Shown here: in pieces, positions 3,895 to 46,447 of the stretch | How positions within the stretch are numbered: the first letter of the stretch is position 1 | How the letters are laid out: each line of letters opens with the position of its first letter | From: an uncultured Bacteroidota bacterium | Lineage (GTDB): Bacteria > Bacteroidota > Bacteroidia > Bacteroidales > P3 | NCBI GenBank assembly: GCA_902791695.1 | Contig: CADAWR010000021.1 | Location: 1-55,468 of the forward strand | Direction: 5' to 3' | Length of the DNA stretch: 55,468 bases | The notes under the pieces: generated by a model | The model's database searches: none | What the model saw: only the letters and a program-made list of their open reading frames with translations | What the model was told of the DNA's origin: nothing | Made by a program: the position numbers and the translations under genes

Positions 3895-4080
3895 TTAAAT
3901 TTCTTCAACGGAGAGGAGATGCTTGACGCTGTCAATCATACCGAGAATCTGAGGAGTGGCGACCACCTCACGAGTATGGTTGATTCGACGAAGACCAAGA
4001 GCCTCCATGGTACGTTTCTGGCGTGCCGGACGGCCAATAATGCTTCTGACCTGTTTAATTCTGAGTTTCTTTTCTGCCAT
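3895..4080 (-). CDS. rpmD: 50S ribosomal protein L30
   Basis: 61 residues, the bacterial short form, with the characteristic VRSIIGRPARQKRTMEALGL segment. It lies between rpsE and rplO as in most bacteria. L30 is absent from some bacterial lineages; here it is intact. Confidence 0.97.
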   Translation of the reverse strand: MAEKKLRIKQVRSIIGRPARQKRTMEALGLRRINHTREVVATPQILGMIDSVKHLLSVEEI

Positions 4081-4099
4081 AACACTATTCTCCTATAAT

Positions 4100-4618
4100 T
4101 TAACCGTTAAACACTTTATCGAGTGTAACACCACGAAGCTGGGCAACCATATAAGGATCCTTCATCTGGAGAAGGGCATTGATAGTAGCCTTTACAACAC
4201 TGTGGGGATTCGATGAACCTTTGCACTTGGCAAGAACATCCTTCACACCGACACTCTCCAAAACGGCACGCATAGCACCACCGGCGATAACACCGGTACC
4301 AGGAGCTGCAGGTTTCAGGAAGACCTTGGCACCACTGTATTTACCCATCTGCTCGTGTGGTATAGTACCCTTCAGTACAGGGACACGGATAAGGTTCTTC
4401 TTGGCATCGTCGACACCCTTTTGGACAGCGGCCTGAACCTCTTTGGCTTTACCAAGGCCATATCCGACAACACCATTCTCATTTCCAATAACGACGATGG
4501 CAGCAAAGGTGAATGTACGACCACCTTTGGTGACTTTCGTAACACGATTGATGGCGACAAGACGGTCTTTGAACTCTATGTCGCTCGACTTAACTCTATT
4601 AACGTTTAATTCTGCCAT
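4100..4618 (-). CDS. rpsE: 30S ribosomal protein S5
   Basis: 172 residues with the N-terminal double-stranded-RNA-binding-like domain ([20 protein letters not shown]) and the C-terminal domain with [20 protein letters not shown]5 contributes to decoding accuracy and mRNA unwinding at the entry channel. The gene is between rplR and rpmD. Confidence 0.98.
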
Positions 4619-6384: not shown

Positions 6385-6945
6385 TTATTTTTGTTGATTC
6401 TTAAACGGAAGACCAAACTCTTTGAGCAGCGACATAGCCTCCTTGTCGGTCTGAGCCGAGGTAACAAAGGTGATGTCCATACCCTGGATGCGGTCAATCT
6501 TATCGATATCAATCTCGGGGAAGATAATCTGCTCGGCGATACCAAAAGTATAGTTACCCTTGCCATCAAATCCCTTGTCATTGATGCCGCGGAAATCGCG
6601 AATACGAGGGATGGAAGCAGTAACGAGACGCTCGAGGAACTCATACATGCGCTCACCACGGAGGGTCACGCGGACACCAATAGGCATACCGCGACGCAGT
6701 TTGAAGTTCGAGATATCTTTGCGCGACTTGGTAGCCACAGCTTTCTGGCCAGTGATGGCTGTCATCTCCTCGATGCCCTTATCAATGACCTTCTTGTCGG
6801 CAATAGCAGCTTTGCCAAGACCTTGGTTAAGGGTTATTTTCTTCAGACGAGGAGCCTGCATAACAGTCTTGTAGCCGTACTCTTTCATCAGAGCGGGCAG
6901 AATTTCCTCTTTGTACTTGGTTTTTAATGTCGGAATGTAAGCCAT
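6385..6945 (-). CDS. rplE: 50S ribosomal protein L5
   Basis: 186 residues. The 5S rRNA-binding segments are clear ([16 protein letters not shown] at the N-terminal third, [16 protein letters not shown] near the C terminus). L5 bridges the central protuberance to the 30S head and P-site tRNA. Its start codon overlaps the rplX stop by one base, which suggests coupled translation. Confidence 0.98.
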
Positions 6946-7259
6946 TATTTAATCTCCTCCCCTGTTTTTTTAGAATAACGGACTATTTTGCCAGTCTTTT
7001 CATCAACACGACGGCCAACCTTTGTGGGGGTCTTGCCAACAACAACCATAAGGTTGGAAATGTGAATGGGAGCTTCCTGCTCGACAATACCTCCCTGCGT
7101 ATTCTTCGCATTGGGTTTGGTATGCTTCTTATTCACGTTGACACCCTCGACGATGGCGCGGTTCTTTTCGGGATAAACCTTCAGCACCTTAGCGACCTTA
7201 CCTTTGTCGTCGCCGGCGATAACCTGAACCATATCCCCTTTCTTAACGTGCAATTTCAT
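6945..7259 (-). CDS. rplX: 50S ribosomal protein L24
   Basis: 104 residues with an N-terminal KOW motif ([20 protein letters not shown]). L24 is an assembly initiator that binds 23S rRNA domain I near the exit tunnel. It lies between rplN and rplE. Confidence 0.98.
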
Positions 7260-20575: not shown

Positions 20576-21799
20576 GTGCGGCTCGAACAGCTCATCGCCG
20601 TACGCTATCTCTTCGCCCGCAGGCAGAAGTCTGTGGTCAACGTCATCTCTTGGATATCCCTCATAGGGCTGCTGGTGAGCACCGCGGCACTCATCGTCGT
20701 GCTCTCAGTCTACAACGGCATCGGCGAAATCACGCGCGGCCTCTTCGGCACCTTCGACCCCGAGCTCATCGTCGAGCCCGCCGAGGGCAAAACTTTCCGC
20801 ACCTCCGACATCGACTATCGCGCCCTGTGCCAGACCGACGGCGTCGAGCGCGTGGCACAGATTGCCGCGGAGACGGCATGGCTCACCTACGGCGACCGCC
20901 AGGCAATAGTCACCCTCCGCGGCGTCGACGAGAATTACCGCAGCATCAGCGGCCTCGACACCGTGCTCCACAACGGCGCCTACCAGCTCACCCTGGCCGA
21001 CGCCCCGGCACTAATCGTCGGCGGCGAGGTCTTCTACGGCCTCGGCATGAACCTCCTCTCCAACCGCCCCGCGGCGGTGCACATACCCAAGCGCGGCACC
21101 ACCTCGATGGGCATCACCATGGACCAAGCTTTCAACATTGGCTACGCCTACCCCGTGGCCTCCTTCTTCATCCAGCAGGACATCGACCGCCGCTTCGTGG
21201 TCACGCACATCGACTTCGTGCGCAGCCTTATGGACTACGCCCCCGACGAGGTCACCGCCCTCGCCGTCAAGCTGCGCCACGGCGCCGACGTCCAAAAGGT
21301 TAAGCAAGCCATCAACTCTAAACTCAAAACACAAAACCCGAAACTCACAGTAAAGGACCGCTACGACCAGCAGCCGCTCTACTTCAAGATATTCCGCACC
21401 GAGCGCCTCGGCATCTACCTCATCCTCTCGCTCATAGTGCTCATCTCCACCCTCAGCCTCGTCGCCTCGCTGTCGCTGCTCATCATCAACAAGCACCGCG
21501 ACATCTTCATCCTGCGCAGCATGGGCATGACCATGCGGCAGGTGCGCCGCGCCTTCGCCACCGAAGGGCTTCTCATCTGCCTCGTCGCCGTGGTGGCAGG
21601 CCTGCTGCTGGGCTTCATCGTCTGCTTCCTGCAGCAGCACTTCGGCATCATACGCATGGGCGACGGCAACTTCGTCGTCAGCGCCTTCCCCGTGGCCATG
21701 CGCGGCGTCGACTTCCTCGCCACCTTCCTCCTCGTCATGGCCATCAGCGGTGCCTCGGTCTTCCTCACCGTCCGCCGCCGCGGTGCCCTTGGCCAGTGA
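20576..21799 (+). CDS. FtsX-like ABC transporter permease of the LolC/LolE type
   Basis: 407 residues from a GTG. One N-terminal membrane segment (around 20-45, preceded by RYLFARRQKSVVNVISWISL as in LolC/E) is followed by a large periplasmic domain (about 46-270). Three C-terminal membrane segments end it (around 280-400), with the FtsX motif region INKHRDIFILRSMGMTMRQVRRAF. In proteobacteria such permeases extract lipoproteins from the inner membrane with a LolD ATPase; no ATPase gene is adjacent. The stop codon is 4 nt before the 11-nt tandem array. Confidence 0.85.
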   Translation: MRLEQLIAVRYLFARRQKSVVNVISWISLIGLLVSTAALIVVLSVYNGIGEITRGLFGTFDPELIVEPAEGKTFRTSDIDYRALCQTDGVERVAQIAAETAWLTYGDRQAIVTLRGVDENYRSISGLDTVLHNGAYQLTLADAPALIVGGEVFYGLGMNLLSNRPAAVHIPKRGTTSMGITMDQAFNIGYAYPVASFFIQQDIDRRFVVTHIDFVRSLMDYAPDEVTALAVKLRHGADVQKVKQAINSKLKTQNPKLTVKDRYDQQPLYFKIFRTERLGIYLILSLIVLISTLSLVASLSLLIINKHRDIFILRSMGMTMRQVRRAFATEGLLICLVAVVAGLLLGFIVCFLQQHFGIIRMGDGNFVVSAFPVAMRGVDFLATFLLVMAISGASVFLTVRRRGALGQ

Positions 21800-21803
21800 A
21801 GCC

Positions 21804-21957
21804 CCGCCCCTTCCCCATCCCTTTCCCTCTCCTTTCCTTCTCCTTCCCCAACCATTTCCATCTCCTTCCCATCTCCTTTCCCTCTCCTTCCCATCTCCTT
21901 CCACACCCCTCCCCATCTTCCTTACCGCGCTCTCGCCTCCCCCACACCTCCGTCGTC
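21804..21957 (+). repeat. Pyrimidine-rich tandem array with 11-nt period
   Basis: Fourteen consecutive 11-nt units can be written without a gap. The best preserved lie at 21859-21902 (CATCTCCTTCC, CATCTCCTTTC, CCTCTCCTTCC, CATCTCCTTCC). Nearly all bases are C or T on the plus strand. The register continues unchanged into the palindrome at 21958-22070. Eleven is not a multiple of three, and the stretch begins 4 nt after a stop codon, so it is not coding. Confidence 0.8.
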
Positions 21958-22070
21958 CCTCCGTATCCTCTCCGTCTGTTTACCGGTTGTTCACCGACTG
22001 TTCGACGGTTTAAACCGTCGAACAGTCGGAACCGGTAAACAGACGGAGAGGATACGGAGCGGGTACGGAG
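21958..22070. repeat. Palindromic 11-nt-module element, copy 1
   Basis: Two 48-nt arms (21959-22011 and 22012-22059) are exact reverse complements, apart from an extra 5 nt (GTTCA, 21989-21993 or equivalent) in the left arm. There is no loop: the centre is TTTAAA. Modules in the left arm are CTCCGTATCCT, CTCCGTCTGTT, TACCGGTTGTT and CACCGACTGTT. One extra module, CGGGTACGGAG (22060-22070), extends the right side. The element ends about 40 nt before the -7 box of cysS. Confidence 0.9.
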
Positions 22071-22111
22071 ATATTTCATTATAAAAACATTCTATATCTG
22101 TTTTTTTTGTG

Positions 22112-22119
22112 TATCTTTG
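22112..22119 (+). promoter_or_regulatory. -7 box of cysS
   Basis: TATCTTTG matches TANNTTTG. Transcription from about 22126 rules out the in-frame ATG at 22117 and leaves 22141 as the first usable start. No TTTG is seen at -33. Confidence 0.6.
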
Positions 22120-22140
22120 CACTTTAAAACATATGGCATT

Positions 22141-23628
22141 ATGGAACAGCAACTGTTGATATACAATACTTTGAGCCGCCAGAAGGAGCTCTTCCGCCCC
22201 ATTACCGAGGGACGCGTGGGCATGTATGTGTGCGGCCCGACTGTCTACGGCGACGGCCACCTGGGACACGCCCGCCCCGCCATCACCTTCGATGTGGTCT
22301 TCCGCTACCTGCAGCATCTGGGCTACAAGGTGCGCTATGTGCGCAACATCACCGACGTGGGCCACTTGGAGCACGACGCCGACGAGGGCGAGGACAAGAT
22401 TGCCAAGAAGGCGCGCCTGGAGCAGCTGGAGCCTATGGAGGTGGCGCAGTACTACACCAACCGCTACCATGCGGCCATGGAGCGCCTCAACGTGCTGCCC
22501 CCCAGCATAGAGCCCCACGCCAGCGGCCACATCATCGAGCAGATAGCCCTGGTGCAGCAGATACTCGACGCCGGCCTGGCCTATGTGAGCAACGGCTCGG
22601 TGTATTTCGACGTGCGCAAATACCAGGAGCAGACCCACAAGTACGGCCAGCTGAGCGGCCGCGTGATTGAGGAGATGCTCGCCACCACGCGCGAGCTCGA
22701 CGGGCAGGAGGAGAAGCACTTCCCGGGCGACTTCGCGCTGTGGAAGAAGGCAGCCCCCGAACACATCATGCGCTGGCCTTCGCCCTGGAGCGACGGCTTC
22801 CCGGGCTGGCACGCCGAGTGCACGGCCATGGGCGCCAAGTACCTCGGTTCGCCGTTCGACATCCACGGCGGCGGCATGGACCTGGTGTTCCCGCACCACG
22901 AGAGCGAGATAGCGCAGTGCGTGGCCTCCACCGGACATGCGCCGTGCCGCTACTGGATGCACAACAACATGATAACCATCAACGGCCAGAAGATGGGCAA
23001 GAGTCTGGGCAACTTCATCACCCTCGACGAGTTCTTCAACGGCAGCCACAAGGACAAGGACGGCAAGGAGATGCTCGAGCAGCCCTACAGCCCCATGACC
23101 ATACGCTTCTTTATACTGCAGGCGCACTACCGCAGCACCGTGGACTTCAGCAATGAGGCCCTGCAGGCGTCGGAAAAGGGCTTTGCCAAGCTCATGGAAG
23201 CCTACAAGACGCTCGGCCGCATCACCCCCTCGGGCAACGCCTCGGTGGCGCAGGTTTCCGAGCTGCGCGCCAAGTGCTACGAGGCCATGAACGACGACTT
23301 CAACACGCCGATAGTCATCAGCCACCTCTTCGACGCGGCACGCATCATCAACCAGGCCAACGACGGCAAGCTGAAGCTCAGCCAGGCCGACATCGACGAG
23401 CTCAAGGGAGTGTTCGACACCTTCCTCTTCGAGGTGATGGGCATGAAGGACGAGGCGGCGAGCGACAACACGGCCCTCATCGACGGCCTGATGCACATCA
23501 TCCTCGACATCCGCGCCACTGCCAAGGCCAACAAGGACTGGGCCACCAGCGACAAGATACGCGACGCCCTCGGCGCTGCCGGCGTCACCGTCAAGGACGG
23601 CAAGGACGGCGCCACGTACAGCTTCTAA
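22141..23628 (+). CDS. cysS: Cysteinyl-tRNA synthetase
   Basis: 495 residues. Class I signatures are present: the HIGH-like GHLGHARP near residue 40 and KMGKSLGN (KMSKS-like) near residue 290. Zinc ligands fit Cys in [13 protein letters not shown], Cys in WHAECTAMG and His in [10 protein letters not shown]. It charges tRNA-Cys in the cytosol. An in-frame ATG 8 codons upstream lies inside the promoter -7 box, so the start at 22141 is chosen. The two following genes are closely spaced. Confidence 0.96.
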
Positions 23629-27228: not shown

Positions 27229-27290
27229 AATAATCTTATATAACAGAAAAGGCCGTCGAATGACGGCCTTTTCTGTTATATAAGATTATT
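27229..27290. terminator. Bidirectional terminator, 29-bp perfect stem
   Basis: Arms 27229-27257 and 27262-27290 are exactly complementary around the loop GAAT. The core AAAAGGCCGTC...GACGGCCTTTT gives A and T tracts on both strands. It lies between the converging T9SS gene and fabD and overlaps the fabD stop codon by one base. Confidence 0.92.
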
Positions 27291-31907: not shown

Positions 31908-32450
31908 CTAACCGAAGAGTTCGTTGATTTCCTTGTGCATGGCCTCCAAGGCAGCCTCGCAAGGCGAATGCTTCGCCGCCGAAGCGAAGATGCCGGCCGC
32001 CAGCCGCGTGGGATCATCGGTGTCGGGCAGGCTCACAGCGGCACTGTTGACGAGGCTCGTCATCTCGTCCTTGGCCTCGCGTATGCGGGTCCACAGCTCC
32101 GTCGACAGGTACACCTGCTGCGACAGGTTATGCTCCCACTCGTCACGTATGTTCTTGGTCATCACCCCCTGCAGCAGCTTCAGGTCCATGCCGGGCTGCC
32201 AGCAGCGCAGCACAAGGCTGTCGGGGCTTATGCGCTCCAGAAACAGCGCCATGCGCTCGTAGGCCTGCAGCCTTATCGGAGTAACCACGCGCAGCGTCTC
32301 GGCACGCTCGTCCATCTTTATTCTCAGCAGACGCTCCTTCTGCTCGTTGTCGAAATAACGCTTCACCAGCATGTACACCACCCAGCCTGTCACAGCCACC
32401 GAGGCCAGCACGGCGAAGACAATAATCAATACAAACGCTATTATTCTCAT
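31908..32450 (-). CDS. Conserved membrane-anchored protein of unknown function
   Basis: 180 residues from the ATG at 32450, which overlaps the cobB stop as ATGA. The frame is open far upstream but overlaps cobB. It has one N-terminal membrane helix (about 5-27) and then a helical soluble part with LRVVTPIRLQAYERMALFLE and RISPDSLVLR. I have seen this arrangement in Bacteroidota proteins of unknown function but cannot name the family. The operon position between a deacylase and a lipoprotein gives no clear role. Confidence 0.7.
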   Translation of the reverse strand: MRIIAFVLIIVFAVLASVAVTGWVVYMLVKRYFDNEQKERLLRIKMDERAETLRVVTPIRLQAYERMALFLERISPDSLVLRCWQPGMDLKLLQGVMTKNIRDEWEHNLSQQVYLSTELWTRIREAKDEMTSLVNSAAVSLPDTDDPTRLAAGIFASAAKHSPCEAALEAMHKEINELFG

Positions 32451-33124
32451 TGCATCAGTTTGTTTACAAGTTCTGTCACCCCCTTCGTGGCGACCTCTTT
32501 GATGAACGTCACCTTGCGGCTTACGGGCACCTCCTTGGGATCCACCACATAGCATGGCACACCGGCCTGCACATAGTGTATCAGCCCTGCGGCGGGATAC
32601 ACAGCCATCGACGTGCCCACGACGACGAATATGTCGGCCTCCTCGCACAGCGCTGCGGCAGGCTCAATATTCGGCACCGCCTCGCCGAACCACACGATGT
32701 GCGGCCTCAGCTGCGTGCCGTCGGGGGCCATGTCGCCCAGTTTTATGTCGCGGTCGCCTATGTCAACTATCAGGTTCGGGTTGCGGTCGCTGCGCCCCTT
32801 GGTGAGCTCGCCGTGCAGGTGCAGCACACTGCTGCTGCCCGCCCGCTCGTGCAGGTCGTCGATGTTCTGCGTCACTATGCGCACGTCATACTTCTCCTCA
32901 AGCCTCACCAGCTGGCGGTGGGCCTCGTTGGGCTGCGCCTTGAAGAGCTGGCGGCGGCGCTCGTTATAGAAGTTCAGCACCAGTTCGGGGTTGCGCTCGT
33001 AAGCCTCGTGCGTGGCCACATCCTCCACACGGTAGTGCTCCCACAGCCCATCGCTGTCGCGGAACGTCGAGATGCCGCTCTCGGCGCTTATGCCCGCGCC
33101 CGTCAATACCACAATCTTTTTCAT
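32447..33124 (-). CDS. cobB: NAD-dependent protein deacylase, sirtuin class III type
   Basis: 225 residues. Motifs are GAGISAESGISTFRD (NAD binding, residues 8-22), TQNIDDLHERAG, the catalytic His in HLHGELTKG, and GTSMAVYPAAG. There are no zinc-binding cysteine pairs. The YNER part of FYNERRRQLF has the Tyr-x-x-Arg pair that in class III sirtuins such as SIRT5 and E. coli CobB accepts acidic acyl groups (succinyl, malonyl). First gene of the operon that ends with fabD. Confidence 0.92.
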   Translation of the reverse strand: MKKIVVLTGAGISAESGISTFRDSDGLWEHYRVEDVATHEAYERNPELVLNFYNERRRQLFKAQPNEAHRQLVRLEEKYDVRIVTQNIDDLHERAGSSSVLHLHGELTKGRSDRNPNLIVDIGDRDIKLGDMAPDGTQLRPHIVWFGEAVPNIEPAAALCEEADIFVVVGTSMAVYPAAGLIHYVQAGVPCYVVDPKEVPVSRKVTFIKEVATKGVTELVNKLMQ

Positions 33125-33180
33125 AATATTTTATAACGCGCGATATAATATATTATTGTGCCCCCACCAAAATATATCCT

Positions 33181-33300
33181 CTACGCATCCTCTCCGTACC
33201 CGCTCCGTCTGTTCTACGGTTGTTCACCGGTTGTTTAACGGTCTAAACAGTCGAACAACCGGTAAACAACCGTAGAACAGACGGAGCGGGTACGGAGAGG
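33181..33300. repeat. Palindromic 11-nt-module element, copy 2
   Basis: The palindrome spans 33189-33300 with a centre at 33244/33245. The outer 47 nt of the two arms are complementary with a single mismatch, and only the central 18 or so nt are degenerate. Left modules are CTCCGTACCCG (33192), CTCCGTCTGTT, CTACGGTTGTT, CACCGGTTGTT and TAACGGTCTAA. A weaker module, CTACGCATCCT (33181-33191), precedes them in register. It lies upstream of cobB and directly beyond the end of a gene remnant. Confidence 0.9.
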
Positions 33301-33316
33301 CGCCGCAGAGGGTGCG

Positions 33317-33481: not shown

Positions 33482-35062
33482 TTATTTGAGCGGTGTGAGG
33501 GTTGTGCGGCGGTTCTTGGCGCGGCCTTCGGGGGTGTCGTTGTCGGCCACCGGACGGCTCTCGCCGTAGCCTCGGTAGGTGAGGCGGTCGGCAGACACAC
33601 CACGGAGTATCAGGTAGTCGTAGACGGCCTTGGCACGGCGCTCGCTGAGCACGAGGTTATCCTCGTCGCTGCCCACGGCATCGGTGTGGCCTCCCACCTC
33701 GAGACGCAGACGCGGATGGCGCTGCAAGGCTTCGGCCAGACGGTCGAGCTCGGCCAGCGAGGTCTCCAGCAGGGTAGCTTTGGCAGTCTCGAAGAATATA
33801 TTGCGAAGGGTGACGGTGTCGCCAAGGGTAAGCAGGTTCTCGGCCTGGCGTATGGGGTCGATGAAGGTGATGCGTTCGGGGCGCGAGGGGGCTGGCATGA
33901 CGAACGAGTAGAGGTCCTGCTGGCCGTAGCCGTCGGGGCGGTCGCTACTGAATAGGGCCGTGCGGCCGTCGGGGGCGACGATGAGGTTATTTTCGTCGCC
34001 GGGGGTGTTGATGGGATAGCCGAGGTTGACGGGTGTGCCCCAGGTTGTGTCGTCGACGCGCTTGACCATGTAGAGGTCGCTGCCGCCCATGCCCATGCGT
34101 CCGTCTGAGGCAAAGTAGAGGGTCTTGTCGTCGAAGTGTATGTAGGGCGCCGTCTCGTTGCCCTTGGTATTCACGGTGGGACCCATGTTGCGGGGCTTGC
34201 TCCAGCGGCCCTCCTCAAGGGTGCAGTACCAGATGTCGGTGCCGCCGTAGCCGCCGCTGCGGTTTGAGGCGAAATAGAGGGTGTAGCCGTCGATGCTCAG
34301 CGAGGGGAACGACTCCCAGTAGACACTGTTGACAGGGGCGCCGAGGTTGCGGGGACGGCCCCAACGGTCGCCGTGGCGCACGCTCATGTATAGGTCGCAG
34401 CCCGTGGGCTCGTTGTTGCGGCCGCAGCCGGTGAAGATAACGATGCGGCCGTCGTGCGAGATGGTCTGGGCGCCTTCGTTGCCGTGGCTGTTGAGGGGCT
34501 CAGGCATACGCTCCGCTGGACCGAAGACGAGCTCCATGGTGTCGTAGTAAGAGATGTAGAAATCTTCCTCTTGGGGCAGGCCACGCTGGGTGTAGGCGTT
34601 GCGGGGACTGCGGCGAGTGAAGACAAGTGTGCGGTAGTCGGCGGTGAGAGCCGGCATATATTCGTCGTCGGGACTGTTGATATTGGGGCCAAGGTTGATG
34701 GGGTGGTACGGCACGGGGTTCTCCACAGCGTGCTGGCGCCATTCGGCCGTGCGGACGCCGTCGCGTGCCTCCTGCTGCCAACGTGTGCTCTTGGGGTTAA
34801 GGTCGAGACAGCGCTGGTAGCACTCACGTGCTTGGGCATACTGCTCAAGGGCCATGTACTGGTTGCCCAGCAGCAGGTAGGCCTCGGCATAGCCGGGGTC
34901 GATATCGATGGCCTTGTGCAGCAACTTGATGGCCTCCTCATATTGCCCCACTACACTCTTTTCAACAGCCCGCTCAAACAACGGCTCGCTCTTGGGTGTC
35001 TGGCCGATGGCCAGTGTCGGCAACAAAAACAGTATGATGAGTATGTGCTTGTAGTGTCTCAT
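33482..35062 (-). CDS. OmpA-family protein with TPR and PD40 repeats
   Basis: 526 residues. Signal peptide 1-20 (ending AIGQ); TPR-like repeats around 27-100 (QYEEAIKLLHKAIDIDPGYA, QYAQARECYQRCLDLNP). WD40/PD40-like beta-propeller repeats lie around 135-370 (YFASNRSGGYGGTDIW, LYFASDGRMGMGGSDLYMVK). A C-terminal OmpA domain starts near 410 (RLEVGGHTDAVGSDEDN) and binds peptidoglycan. This layout matches Bacteroidota proteins of the PorE type, one of which takes part in anchoring the T9SS, but orthology cannot be settled by eye. Confidence 0.85.
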   Translation of the reverse strand: MRHYKHILIILFLLPTLAIGQTPKSEPLFERAVEKSVVGQYEEAIKLLHKAIDIDPGYAEAYLLLGNQYMALEQYAQARECYQRCLDLNPKSTRWQQEARDGVRTAEWRQHAVENPVPYHPINLGPNINSPDDEYMPALTADYRTLVFTRRSPRNAYTQRGLPQEEDFYISYYDTMELVFGPAERMPEPLNSHGNEGAQTISHDGRIVIFTGCGRNNEPTGCDLYMSVRHGDRWGRPRNLGAPVNSVYWESFPSLSIDGYTLYFASNRSGGYGGTDIWYCTLEEGRWSKPRNMGPTVNTKGNETAPYIHFDDKTLYFASDGRMGMGGSDLYMVKRVDDTTWGTPVNLGYPINTPGDENNLIVAPDGRTALFSSDRPDGYGQQDLYSFVMPAPSRPERITFIDPIRQAENLLTLGDTVTLRNIFFETAKATLLETSLAELDRLAEALQRHPRLRLEVGGHTDAVGSDEDNLVLSERRAKAVYDYLILRGVSADRLTYRGYGESRPVADNDTPEGRAKNRRTTLTPLK

Positions 35063-43416: not shown

Positions 43417-43470
43417 AATTTACTGTATTAGTGATCAATATTCGTTTTTGCATCCCGATATTTATAATTG

Positions 43471-43478
43471 CAAAAATA
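43471..43478 (-). promoter_or_regulatory. -7 box of the beta-helix protein gene
   Basis: TATTTTTG on the minus strand matches TANNTTTG. At a 20-nt spacing upstream lies ATTG (43499-43502), three of four bases of TTTG. The predicted leader is about 45-50 nt. Confidence 0.55.
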
Positions 43479-43566
43479 CACTGATAAATATATCCAGACA
43501 ATATCATATAGATTGTTTTCTTTGGCAAAAAGTCGGAACAATTCCAAATATTCAAAAAATATTCCG

Positions 43567-43574
43567 TACTTTTG
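43567..43574 (+). promoter_or_regulatory. -7 box of the AraC-type regulator gene
   Basis: TACTTTTG matches TANNTTTG and ends only 4 nt before the ATG at 43579. The usual distance from box to start of transcription (about 6-7 nt) places the transcript start on or next to that ATG. Confidence 0.5.
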
Positions 43575-43578
43575 CAAT

Positions 43579-44430
43579 ATGAAAACCACGGGACATTACC
43601 AGCATCCAATGCTGGTAAATGCACAGAAAATCAAGGAGAACAGATTCGCCATCCTCGACGACGTCAGGGAATTGCCCACTGGAAAAGAACCGTTCACCTC
43701 ACCCGACTATGTCATCTGCATCGGCCAACGCGGCACAATGCAGATGACCTACGACGGCATGCCCGACCACTCGTCGAAGCAGACCGTGGCAGTGGTCTTT
43801 CCCAACCACACACTCCGCATGGTGAGCAAGAGCGACGACTACCTCGCCACACTGGTGGTGGTCGACGCCTCGCTGCTTGACGATCCGCTGCTGCGCATCA
43901 TCAATCAGTTGCGCTACCGCTATGAGCCGCACCCATGGGTTGAGCTCAGCCACCACGAGTACAGTGTCATCATGCATCTGGTGGACGTGATGCGCGAGAC
44001 GGTAGACATCGACATTCCAGACAAGCGGCTGTTACTGACTCGCCAGCTGGAGTTCTTCATGCGGCTGCTCAGCCACTACCGCACAGTCAAGCTAAACGAG
44101 GCCCCGAATCTGAAACACGTCAGCACTCAGTTCCATAACAACCTGACACAACATTTCCGCACCCACCGCGACGTGGAGTTCTATGCCGGCAGGGCATGCC
44201 TCACGCCCAAATACTTCAGCACCGTGGTGAAGCAGGAGACAGGCCACACGGCGGCCTGGTGGATACATGCGCGGGTCATCGCCGAGGCCGAGACGTTGCT
44301 GCAGCTGCGCCGTGACCTCACAATCCAAGCCGTCGCCGACCAAATGGGCTTTCCCGACCAGGCTTCCTTCTCACGCTTCTTCAAACGCGAGACAGGAATC
44401 TCGCCTACAGCATATCGACTGTCGGTGTGA
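43579..44430 (+). CDS. AraC-family transcriptional regulator
   Basis: 283 residues. The N-terminal part (about 1-165) has a cupin-like sensor arrangement. The C-terminal 100 residues hold two helix-turn-helix units: YAGRACLTPKYFSTVVKQET and LTIQAVADQMGFPDQASFSR, ending FFKRETGISPTAYR, typical of AraC. The open frame starts earlier (43468), but the promoter box at 43567-43574 excludes that start. It is divergent from the beta-helix protein gene, a usual place for its regulator. The effector is unknown. Confidence 0.88.
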   Translation: MKTTGHYQHPMLVNAQKIKENRFAILDDVRELPTGKEPFTSPDYVICIGQRGTMQMTYDGMPDHSSKQTVAVVFPNHTLRMVSKSDDYLATLVVVDASLLDDPLLRIINQLRYRYEPHPWVELSHHEYSVIMHLVDVMRETVDIDIPDKRLLLTRQLEFFMRLLSHYRTVKLNEAPNLKHVSTQFHNNLTQHFRTHRDVEFYAGRACLTPKYFSTVVKQETGHTAAWWIHARVIAEAETLLQLRRDLTIQAVADQMGFPDQASFSRFFKRETGISPTAYRLSV

Positions 44431-44511: not shown

Positions 44512-44607
44512 CTTCCTCCCCCCTCCGTACCCGCTCCGTACCCGCTCCGACTGTTCACCGGTTGTTTAACGGTTTTTTGTCGGAGGGGGGACGGAGGGGA
44601 TACAGAG
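44512..44607. repeat. Palindromic 11-nt-module element, copy 3 (short form)
   Basis: Modules in order: a degenerate CTTCCTCCCCC, CTCCGTACCCG twice (44523-44544), CTCCGAC, TGTTCACCGGT and TGTTTAACGGT (44552-44573), a T run, GTCGGAG (44579-44585), then GGGGGACGGAG and GGGATACAGAG. The outer part pairs as CTCCGAC with GTCGGAG and the flanking modules with 9 of 11 and 8 of 11 matches. The inner modules are present on the left side only. It ends about 18 nt before the -7 box of the phosphohexomutase gene. Confidence 0.8.
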
Positions 44608-44624: not shown

Positions 44625-44632
44625 TATATTTG
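44625..44632 (+). promoter_or_regulatory. -7 box of the phosphohexomutase gene
   Basis: TATATTTG matches TANNTTTG. Transcription from about 44639 leaves a leader of about 60 nt and rules out the in-frame ATG at 44630, which lies inside the box. Confidence 0.55.
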
Positions 44633-44698
44633 CAGGATGGCACAATAAAACAGCACTTTTCGTGTTATCGTAATAATTATGTAAAAAACTTTGACACT

Positions 44699-46447
44699 AT
44701 GGATATCAACACCCTGAACATCGACGAGAGCGCCAAGATCAACGTTAAGGCTTGGCTCGAAGGAGAATACGACGAGGCCACCAAGCAGGCTATCCGCGAC
44801 ATGGCCGCGAACCCCACGGAGCTCAACGAGAGCTTCTACCGCCACCTGGAATTCGGCACCGGAGGCCTGCGCGGCATCATGGGCGTGGGCACCAACCGCA
44901 TGAACAAATACACCGTGGCCATGGCCACCCAGGGCTTGGCCAACTACGTGAAGAAGGTAAATGCTGGCGAGAAGGAGCTGAGAGCCGCCGTCTCGCACGA
45001 CAGCCGCAACCACAGCCGCGAGTTCGCCGAGATTACCGCCTCGGTGCTCGCCGCCAATGGCTACAAGGTGTACCTCTTCGACGGCATGCGTCCCACCCCT
45101 GAGCTGAGCTTCGCCGTGCGCCACTTCCACTGCCACACCGGCGTGATGGTCACCGCCAGCCACAACCCCAAGGAGTACAATGGCTACAAGGCCTACTGGA
45201 GCGACGGCTGCCAGCTGACCGCCCCGCACGACGAGGCCGTCATCGAGGAGGTGCTCAAAATCAAGAGCGTCGGCGACGTGAAGATGACCGGTGGCGAAAA
45301 GAACATCACCATCATAGGCGAAGATGTCGACAAGGTGTACCTGCAGCGTGTTGAGCAGAACAGCCTCAACCCCGAGCTCATCAAGAAACACCACGACGTG
45401 AAGATTGTCTACACCCCGCTGCACGGCACCGGCATCACGCTGATACCGCGTATGCTGAAGCAGCTGGGCTTCACCAACGTCAACGTCGTCGAGGCACAGG
45501 CGGTGCCCGACGGCAACTTCCCCACCACGCCGAGCCCTAACCCCGAGGAGAAGGCTGCCATGAGCATGGCTGTGGAGCTGGCGCGCAAGATTGACGCCGA
45601 CATTGTCTTTGCCAGCGACCCCGACGCCGACCGCGTGGGCGTGGCTGTGAAGCGCCCCGACGGCGAGTGGATGCTGCTCAACGGCAACCAGACCATGAGC
45701 GTGCTGCTCTACTACATACTGCGCCAGTGGAAGGAAAAAGAGATGCTCACCGGCAACGAGTTCATAGTGAAGACCATCGTCACCAGCGAGCTGCCTGCCG
45801 ACATCGCGGCACGCCTGGGCGTCAAGGTGTATGACGTGCTGACGGGCTTCAAGTTCATCGGCGCCAAGATTAAAGAGCTGGAAGGCATAGAGACCTTCAT
45901 AGCCGGTGGCGAGGAGAGCTACGGCTACATGATAGGCGACTTCGTGCGCGACAAGGACGCCGTGGCAGCCTGCTCGATGATTGCCGAGATGGCAGCCTGG
46001 GCCCGCGAACAGGGCAAGACCTTCTTCGACGTGCTGGTGGACATCTACCGCGAATACGGGTTCTACAAAGAGGGTTTGCTGAGCGTGGTGCGCAAAGGCA
46101 AGAGCGGCGCCGAGGAGATCCAGCAGATGATGCGCGACTACCGCAGCAATCCGCCGCAGGAGATTGACGGAGAAAAGGTCGTCTGCATAAAGGACTACCA
46201 GACTCACGAGAGCAAAGACCTAATCACCGGCAAAGTCACCAAACTCGACCTGCCTACAAGCAACGTGTTGCAGTTCTTCACCGACAAGGGCAACAAGGTC
46301 ACGGTACGCCCCAGCGGCACTGAGCCCAAGATTAAGTTCTACTTCGGCGTGAAAGGCGAGCTGCCTTGCCCCCACTGCTTCGACGATGTCAACGCCGCCC
46401 TCGACGCCAAGATCGAGGCCATCAAGAAGAGCATGAAGCTCTGCTAA
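44699..46447 (+). CDS. Phosphoglucomutase/phosphomannomutase family protein
   Basis: 582 residues. The phosphorylated serine is Ser154 in VTASHNPKEYNG, the metal loop is DPDADR at 307-312, the sugar loop GGEESYGY is near residue 402, and the phosphate loop RPSGTEPK is in the C-terminal domain. The length fits the larger alpha-D-phosphohexomutases (PgcA/PGM2 type) found in Bacteroidota. It interconverts hexose 1- and 6-phosphates. The start is chosen because the promoter overlaps the longer frame. Confidence 0.93.
   Translation: MDINTLNIDESAKINVKAWLEGEYDEATKQAIRDMAANPTELNESFYRHLEFGTGGLRGIMGVGTNRMNKYTVAMATQGLANYVKKVNAGEKELRAAVSHDSRNHSREFAEITASVLAANGYKVYLFDGMRPTPELSFAVRHFHCHTGVMVTASHNPKEYNGYKAYWSDGCQLTAPHDEAVIEEVLKIKSVGDVKMTGGEKNITIIGEDVDKVYLQRVEQNSLNPELIKKHHDVKIVYTPLHGTGITLIPRMLKQLGFTNVNVVEAQAVPDGNFPTTPSPNPEEKAAMSMAVELARKIDADIVFASDPDADRVGVAVKRPDGEWMLLNGNQTMSVLLYYILRQWKEKEMLTGNEFIVKTIVTSELPADIAARLGVKVYDVLTGFKFIGAKIKELEGIETFIAGGEESYGYMIGDFVRDKDAVAACSMIAEMAAWAREQGKTFFDVLVDIYREYGFYKEGLLSVVRKGKSGAEEIQQMMRDYRSNPPQEIDGEKVVCIKDYQTHESKDLITGKVTKLDLPTSNVLQFFTDKGNKVTVRPSGTEPKIKFYFGVKGELPCPHCFDDVNAALDAKIEAIKKSMKLC

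Follow-up and report, generated by a model that had tools for sequence, protein, structure and literature searches.

The palindrome that precedes cysS in the genome of an uncultured gut bacterium of the Bacteroidales (hereafter G000) is, in the reading that we propose and to which we give a probability of about one half, a copy of an interspersed palindromic repeat that is non-autonomous and restricted to the genus, that disperses in the manner of MITEs or REP sequences and whose arms consist of iteron-like modules. The family to which this palindrome, named element A, belongs looks like an 11-nt modular, genus-restricted dispersed repeat that has seemingly gone unreported: in the literature that was accessible, with subscription papers mostly beyond the search, no description of 11-nt modular palindromes in Bacteroidales was found. 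It is filed here among the interspersed palindromic repeats, as neither a REPIN nor a proven MITE. Throughout the text, the window is the whole stretch of 55,468 nucleotides of contig CADAWR010000021.1 that was analysed.

Element A and the pyrimidine-rich array beside it

Element A is located between a gene encoding an FtsX/MacB-like permease (20576..21799, plus strand; Pfam PF02687 and PF12704) and cysS, encoding cysteinyl-tRNA synthetase (22141..23628, plus strand; Pfam PF01406). Its left arm (21947..22011, plus strand; HMM match 21961-22011) consists of the modules CCTCCGTCGTC, CCTCCGTATCC, TCTCCGTCTGT, TTACCGGTTGT, TCACCGACTGT and TCGACGGTTT, while the right arm (22012..22071, minus strand; HMM match 22057-22012) lacks 5 nt of the left one. 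Just past element A and upstream of cysS is TATCTTTG (22112..22119, plus strand), which we take to belong to the class of Bacteroidetes-type -7 promoter motifs, tested genome-wide in the form TAnnTTTG. The original prediction described the palindrome as turning at TTTAAA into its exact reverse complement. The palindrome is real and centred on TTTAAA, with a perfect inner arm of 18 nt (21994-22011/22012-22029) and a longer outer arm beyond; the exactness has to be given up, as the left arm contains an extra GTTCA (5 nt) that forms a one-sided bulge in the predicted fold. The DNA of element A is predicted to fold with -64.8 kcal/mol (z -15.8).

Between the permease gene and the left arm lies a pyrimidine-rich tandem array (21804..21924, plus strand; best unit CATCTCCTTCC), to which Tandem Repeats Finder assigns a period of 11 (score 96; 21809-21923) as well as periods of 22 (21815-21923) and 33 (21809-21917). 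Over 21804..21924, 72 of 110 positions match at lag 11 compared with 47 in shuffles, a count reached by 0 of 5000, and the lag-11 autocorrelation has a z of 5.1 in 21804-21946, 5.9 in 21946-22012 and 8.3 in 21798-22012, the last being matched by 0 of 2000 shuffles at any lag from 5 to 35. The 11-nt periodicity that had been noticed is therefore upheld for the array and the left arm, but not for the right arm alone, where it is non-significant (22012-22076; z 3.3, p 0.10 over all lags). The further claim that the register runs unbroken from array to palindrome is not demonstrated, the junction (21914-21958) having a non-significant 17 of 34 lag-11 matches compared with 12.7 in shuffles (p 0.06). 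Nor is an array running into the palindrome the general design: a lag-11 z of at least 3 outside the palindrome is found at 3 of the 70 flanks of 35 full copies, element A included, and among the control lags, lag 9 likewise gives 3 and lags 8, 10, 12, 13 and 14 give 0-1. At the orthologous site of element A in a closely related species (G111), the pyrimidine stretch is, by eye, much shorter. The array is thus a rare outer extension of the element.

Arrays with an 11-nt unit were also observed elsewhere. Three stretches of another species, G115 (L264:1785-2060, 3957-4100 and 6725-6956), are long purine/pyrimidine arrays (GGGAGTGAAAG, TCACTCCCCTT) that resemble the array of element A, and arrays of quite different sequence (GGAATGTTAGA, GCGGACCATCC) are found upstream of cysS in the MAG SRR11784291_bin.38 (L153:2722-2983). 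A tandem array of about five units, TCCTAAGCATA, lies beside a gene start in genome G010 (L319). The relatives found in a cysS scan are mainly MAGs of uncultured Bacteroidales, the closest of which come, where stated, from rumen, deer, reindeer and horse samples.

A dispersed and polar family in the source genome

Further genomic copies, the lack of which would have refuted the original prediction, do exist. CTCCGTN5CTCCGT has 78+80 matches genome-wide and 0+0 in the reversed control, and the window itself holds two more copies. Element B (33178..33311), a full palindrome with orthologous copies in G111 and in another close species, G082, lies in a codirectional gap between a SIR2-family gene (32447..33124, minus strand; Pfam PF02146) and an OmpA/PD40/TPR gene (33482..35062, minus strand). 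Element C (44519..44600, plus strand) is a half element, in which one module-bearing arm is followed by TTTTTTGTCGGAGG; it lies between an AraC-type regulator gene (43468..44430, plus strand; Pfam PF12833) and a phosphoglucomutase/phosphomannomutase gene (44630..46447, plus strand), and is oriented with the latter, downstream gene. By an arm-profile search, 52 copies, comprising 35 palindromes inverted over their whole length and 17 half elements, were recovered from an unbiased 849,838 bp (39% of the genome: the window, contig C7 in full, and 120, 220 and 280 kb of contigs C1, C2 and C3, respectively), compared with 0 in the reversed-sequence control, which extrapolates to roughly 130 copies in the whole genome. 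The family is intergenic, as 50 of the 52 copies lie outside the genes called by a codon-score caller made for the analysis and two lie inside a called ORF. On contigs C3 and C9 of G000, matches are equally far from the contig starts. In genome G069, matches are found within ~300 bases of the ends of contigs C1, C2, C3, C5, C7, C11 and C13, and because they crowd contig ends, these repeats probably break assemblies.

The arms are rows of 11-nt modules. Read outward, the arm consensus is AAACCGT followed by TAAACAACCGG, TGAACAACCGT, AGAACAGACGG and AGAGGGTACG, and that of the module is AACA-NN-YG-NNN, with species-specific linkers. Consensus, linker and covariation counts are those of 58 in-register copies (53 full and 5 half) that had first passed a pairing filter; copies of the related species G019, which were out of register in the arm alignment, were excluded from use. 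All 106 arms of the 53 full copies carry AACA in both inner modules, and the AACA of the third module is present in 92-100%, while linker bases vary among the in-register copies. Together, the conserved cores and freer linkers point to a putative sequence-specific recognition once per 11 bp. Covariation between the arms was weak (z 2.0 and 2.1) and was set aside as a proof of pairing. At 8-9 nt from the centre, TA is present on one arm only in 50 of the 53 full copies and on both arms in two; the element thus has a polarity and contains an internal mismatch. Divergent gaps hold equal numbers of the two polarities (10 and 10).

Divergent gaps account for 27 of 48 element-bearing gaps compared with 36 of 233 without an element (OR 7.0, p 1.3e-8), for net gap lengths of at least 60 nt, with two other cut-offs giving OR 6.2 and 7.3, and with one contig-edge copy and the two copies inside called ORFs omitted. 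The preference is not significantly different between full and half elements (20/33 vs 7/16 in divergent gaps). Convergent gaps, where transcription is to be expected, are not significantly depleted (4/48 with an element vs 29/233 without, p 0.62) and so lend no support to selection against transcribed copies. Of the half elements in codirectional gaps, all eight in the unbiased sample and 12 of 14 in a larger, biased and overlapping sample are oriented with the genes. Of 50 gene-facing sides, 34 have TAnnTTTG pointing away from the element at no more than 300 nt, compared with 1 of 16 other sides. The distance between element centre and -7 motif is spread, 33 of 34 falling at 94-176 nt and one at 209, for which reason we make no claim of a phased activator.

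Such a placement bears on whether the element acts as RNA, that is, as a terminator, an attenuator or a double-stranded rod, the 11-nt period corresponding to a turn of the A-form helix. One A-form turn is about 11 bp, and the predicted hairpins are stable, but copies in G000 tend to lie between outward promoters, a contrast that is weaker in G115 (18/32 facing sides vs 4/12 others), and the regular RNA rod envisaged in the original prediction is likewise disfavoured by the divergent gaps of G000. An intrinsic terminator at element A was rejected, as a scan that covered the element found no terminator-like site at 21700-22250, and the Rfam scan of the window returned two tRNAs and no other match. 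We consider an RNA element highly improbable; the earlier statement that the palindrome is unlike an ordinary terminator or a classical REP sequence was correct. Elsewhere in the window (27229-27290), a perfect hairpin with 29-bp arms and a 4-nt loop is located between convergent genes and resembles an ordinary bidirectional terminator.

Copies in G000 also avoid each other. The minimum spacing is 5.7 kb, and 0 of 47 spacings are below 5 kb compared with ~10 under a null in which 130 nt (120 in G115) were taken off element-bearing gaps, a result reached by 0 of 5000 simulations.

Shared positions and different module vocabularies among related species

Elements retrieved from G111, G019 and G082 numbered 41; for 19 of them both flanks could be located in the G000 sample, and all 19 sites are occupied (12 for G111, five for G019 and two for G082); four of these sites are in stretches chosen for holding an element, and in the unbiased stretches 15 of 15 placed sites are occupied. 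Of the remaining elements, eight could be matched through a single flank and 14 through neither. At one site of G001, whose flanks are 66-68% identical, G000 has no element. Despite the shared positions, the resemblance between orthologous copies exceeds that between other copies only slightly: identity to G000 is 79.5% for 11 orthologous pairs and 76% for non-orthologous ones in G111 (11 of 12 G111 pairs having passed the pairing filter, which the pair of element A failed), 80% (five pairs) and 75% in G019, and 68% (two pairs) and 69% in G082. Within species, copies average 77% identity in both G000 and G111 and 87% in both G019 and G082, with classes mixed in G000, where 17 of the 71 copies compared, each with at least 30/45 paired, are half elements. 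Outside the 19-mers by which loci were found, core identity is 88% in G111 and 95% in G019, and linker identity 73% and 76%, respectively. In a comparison of 16 of the 19 placed pairs the spacer is 85% identical, which beside the 88% of the cores in G111 indicates a weak core constraint. In one copy of G082 (L136), the left arm has the usual modules and the right arm is built from a different 11-nt unit, AACTACTGAAG, which gives the impression that one arm was exchanged.

Positions shared between deep branches were sought and none was found. Across 83 gene adjacencies conserved between G115 and G000, an element is present in G115 only at three, in G000 only at six and in both at none; across 62 adjacencies conserved between G045 and G000, one has an element in G045 alone and no adjacency has one in both. 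In 8 of these 10 contrasts the gap with the element exceeds its counterpart in length (e.g., 348 vs -16, 226 vs 13 and 227 vs -3 nt), and in two it is shorter (306 vs 889 and 649 vs 1004). Neither a target-site duplication nor a clean empty site was seen, all 19 close-species sites being occupied and the distant ones giving gap lengths only; a search from a G045 flank recovered no empty site because synteny is lost.

Module vocabularies differ between three lineages, namely the G000 clade, G115 and G045. Over 500 kb of G115 sequence, the best arm lag is 11 or 22 in 23 of 27 palindromes, and the modules (TTGTCCGCTTG, TTGTCCAGTTG and TTGTACAATAN) match AACANNYG poorly, with 9 two-module matches in elements compared with 13 in reversed sequence. 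In G045, 19 copies that are nearly identical by eye were found in 362,631 bp. The divergent preference is present in G115 (12/22 vs 31/214, OR 7.1, p 5e-5; OR 5.8 and 4.8 at other cut-offs) and absent from G045 (5/19 vs 24/104, OR 1.2, p 0.77), by which divergent location as a general rule is refuted. Spacing has a minimum of 7.8 kb in G115, where 0 of 18 are below 5 kb compared with 3.8 under the null (p ~0.012), and of 4,988 bp in G045, where 0 of 16 are below 4.5 kb compared with 3.0 (p 0.02-0.03), a limit set after the pattern places had been listed, and 1 of 16 is below 5 kb; the coefficient of variation of G045 spacings does not differ from the null (p ~0.4). Mutual avoidance is thus found in three sampled species and is strong only in G000, and divergent preference is found in two of the three.

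Palindromes between divergent promoters might serve as cruciforms or supercoil buffers, extruding under the negative supercoiling that transcription drives. The divergent bias of two lineages, the AT-rich centre and the long arms are in keeping with such a role. The copies of G045 lack the bias, however, 17 of 52 copies in G000 are half elements, and extrusion needs neither conserved module cores nor a systematic 2-nt mismatch, so that we give this explanation little credence.

Abundance across the genus is patchy. Three AACANNYG modules at an 11-nt period occur in 35 of 120 genus genomes, with 1 to 409 matches each, against a reversed control that is not clean (nine of 120 genomes and 31 matches, 11 of them in G115). 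GTTGTT at an 11-nt period occurs in 24 of the 120 genus genomes, in a scan whose reversed control was likewise not clean, and in 3 of 395 genomes of the class, the source genome included. G016 and G109 have three and one 11-nt matches per 100 kb, respectively. As 85 of the 120 genomes are without a three-module match and these two have so few 11-nt matches, the element has no universal function.

These data also bear on a role in chromosome organisation, in which the host would keep copies as sites where a nucleoid-associated, segregation or topology protein binds the 11-bp modules, and in which the spacing itself would be functional. Consistent with such a platform are the density of about one copy every 16-20 kb and the lower limit to spacing near 5 kb in three species, the sharing of every placeable position among close species and the invariant AACA of the inner modules in G000. 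Positions nevertheless differ between deep branches, and copies in G111 are less well paired (mean 31.6/45 vs 35.4, 39.7 and 38.9). We regard this platform as possible but rather doubtful.

Affinities with known systems and a proposed history

Like REP, BIME and REPIN sequences, the elements are dispersed, intergenic, high-copy palindromes with two inverted arms and an interrupted stem; the stem of Escherichia coli REP is interrupted by a bulge (PMC8266576) and that of the present family by a 2-nt mismatch. They differ in that their arms are tandem 11-nt modules, the whole element measures ~100 bp or more, G000 is without a Y1 match and copies avoid each other to ~5 kb; for REP sequences, no departure from random spacing is reported beyond 200 bp (PMC3116915). 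If the family were a REPIN moved by a REP-associated tyrosine (Y1) transposase, the hairpin with a conserved internal mismatch, the high copy number and the intergenic location would all be explained, and Y1 matches do occur in the genus, in 28 of 41 genomes. G111 and G082 have a single match each, and G115 has three. RAYT/Y1 was rejected as partner: the search for PF01797 gave 0 matches and 0 candidates in the draft genomes of G000 (95% complete) and G019 (81% complete), and at eight Y1 loci of genus members other than the carriers studied here no palindrome of the family of element A was found, with an 11-nt array nearby at two of the eight. Considering also the spacing, unlike that of REPINs, we find a Y1-driven REPIN improbable. 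In G010 (L054) and G024 (L058), 11-nt arrays were observed within ~1.5 kb of a Y1 transposase gene.

Two repeats described from other Bacteroidales are comparable as far as the accessible parts of their reports go. BrickBuilt of Porphyromonas gingivalis is a MITE of 23-nt direct repeats with a leader and a tail, present in 19 copies (PMC4596501); it is similarly intergenic, with a minisatellite of variable repeat number within a dispersed element, but in what is accessible it has no inverted pair of arrays and no 11-nt unit. PINSR of Prevotella intermedia is, like the present family, a high-copy intergenic repeat of one Bacteroidales lineage, with about three-quarters of its positions common to two strains; the accessible text describes a 188-bp repeat without terminal inverted repeats that is stated to be distinct from MITEs, and mentions no modules (PMC4755523). 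In common with MITEs in general, the elements are short and non-coding and have inverted-repeat ends (35 of 52 copies).

The closest likeness of module form is found in phages. The three-module pattern occurs in at least 120 stretches of phage contigs, and among 80 arrays examined of these at least 120, 63 lie in frames similar to five phage replication proteins, five of them being the query proteins themselves (58 of 75 without the queries). Such frames also hold viral control arrays with a 12-nt period (11/78, sampled from at least 120 stretches), a permuted pattern (6/39, sampled from 45) and a reversed one (32/71, sampled from 73), and as the reversed control is not independent, only the gene context was used. 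Searches against PHROGs with seven frames identified five DnaD-like or O-like initiators and one primosomal protein and gave no match for one, while Pfam gave no initiator family in 10 phage frames, eight of which were without any match. The 11-nt AACANNCG arrays of viral contigs L323-L402 lie inside DnaD-like/O-like initiator genes. We take arrays in phage initiator genes to be origin iterons, and those of AACANNCG are perhaps a widespread one. They share with the present family tandem AACA-NN-CG-NNN modules at an 11-nt period, but are direct repeats inside a gene, without inverted modules up to 130 nt upstream at any of the 26 phage loci with a G000- or G045-type module, and a search for the initiator phrog_2514 gave matches in 2 of 14 genomes, G000 not being among them. 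By analogy, the phage parallel suggests a kind of protein that may be able to read the modules, and not a phage origin here. Plasmid centromeres of the ParR/parC type also consist of iteron arrays of 11-bp direct repeats, bound cooperatively and placed beside parMR; these are plasmid loci, in contrast to the scores of chromosomal palindromes reported here. The original prediction was right to put the 11-nt unit at the centre and to think a protein array possible, given the recurrence of AACA-NN-YG-NNN in 35 of the 120 genus genomes and in phage initiator genes.

Returning to the mobile, non-autonomous repeat, we propose that its arms of about three to five 11-bp modules would be arranged like the iterons of replication initiators and that copies may spread in bursts into intergenic DNA by means of a trans-acting DNA-binding protein, which would read the modules on duplex or extruded DNA. 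We infer mobility from the lineage-specific bursts, the near-identical copies of G045 and the longer element-bearing gaps in most contrasts. The three module vocabularies, the patchy abundance, the lack of common positions across deep branches and the lesser divergence of cores than of linkers at orthologous sites also speak for this reading. No mobilising enzyme was found by the Y1 searches of G000 and G019 or among the protein starts read by eye between the closest copies of G045. Older families may persist mainly between divergent promoters: because G045 copies lack the divergent bias, that of G000 and G115 may reflect survival where transcripts miss the palindrome, although the missing convergent deficit speaks against a simple form of survival after insertion. 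The spacing floor might result from target immunity at insertion, from recombination loss between close copies or from a function of the spacing. Against a mobile repeat stand the avoidance to ~5 kb, unlike that of REPINs, the weak core constraint in G111 and the poor fit of G115 to AACANNYG.

A more speculative reading, which we consider unlikely, is that the ~130 palindromes form a self-avoiding, chromosome-wide ladder of initiator-type iterons, which would either titrate incoming initiators in the manner of decoys or provide spaced anchors for a related host winged-helix protein; the change of linkers from species to species would then resemble an arms race.

If our reading is right, the family is a bacterial interspersed repeat defined more by an 11-bp grammar than by one sequence, which keeps a minimum distance of ~5 kb in three sampled species, unlike reported REPINs. 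The determinants of repeat spacing along bacterial chromosomes would then be open to test, as would the way in which a family of repeats renews its vocabulary genome-wide yet keeps its positions, and the module form held in common with phage initiator arrays would give a concrete class of protein to seek.
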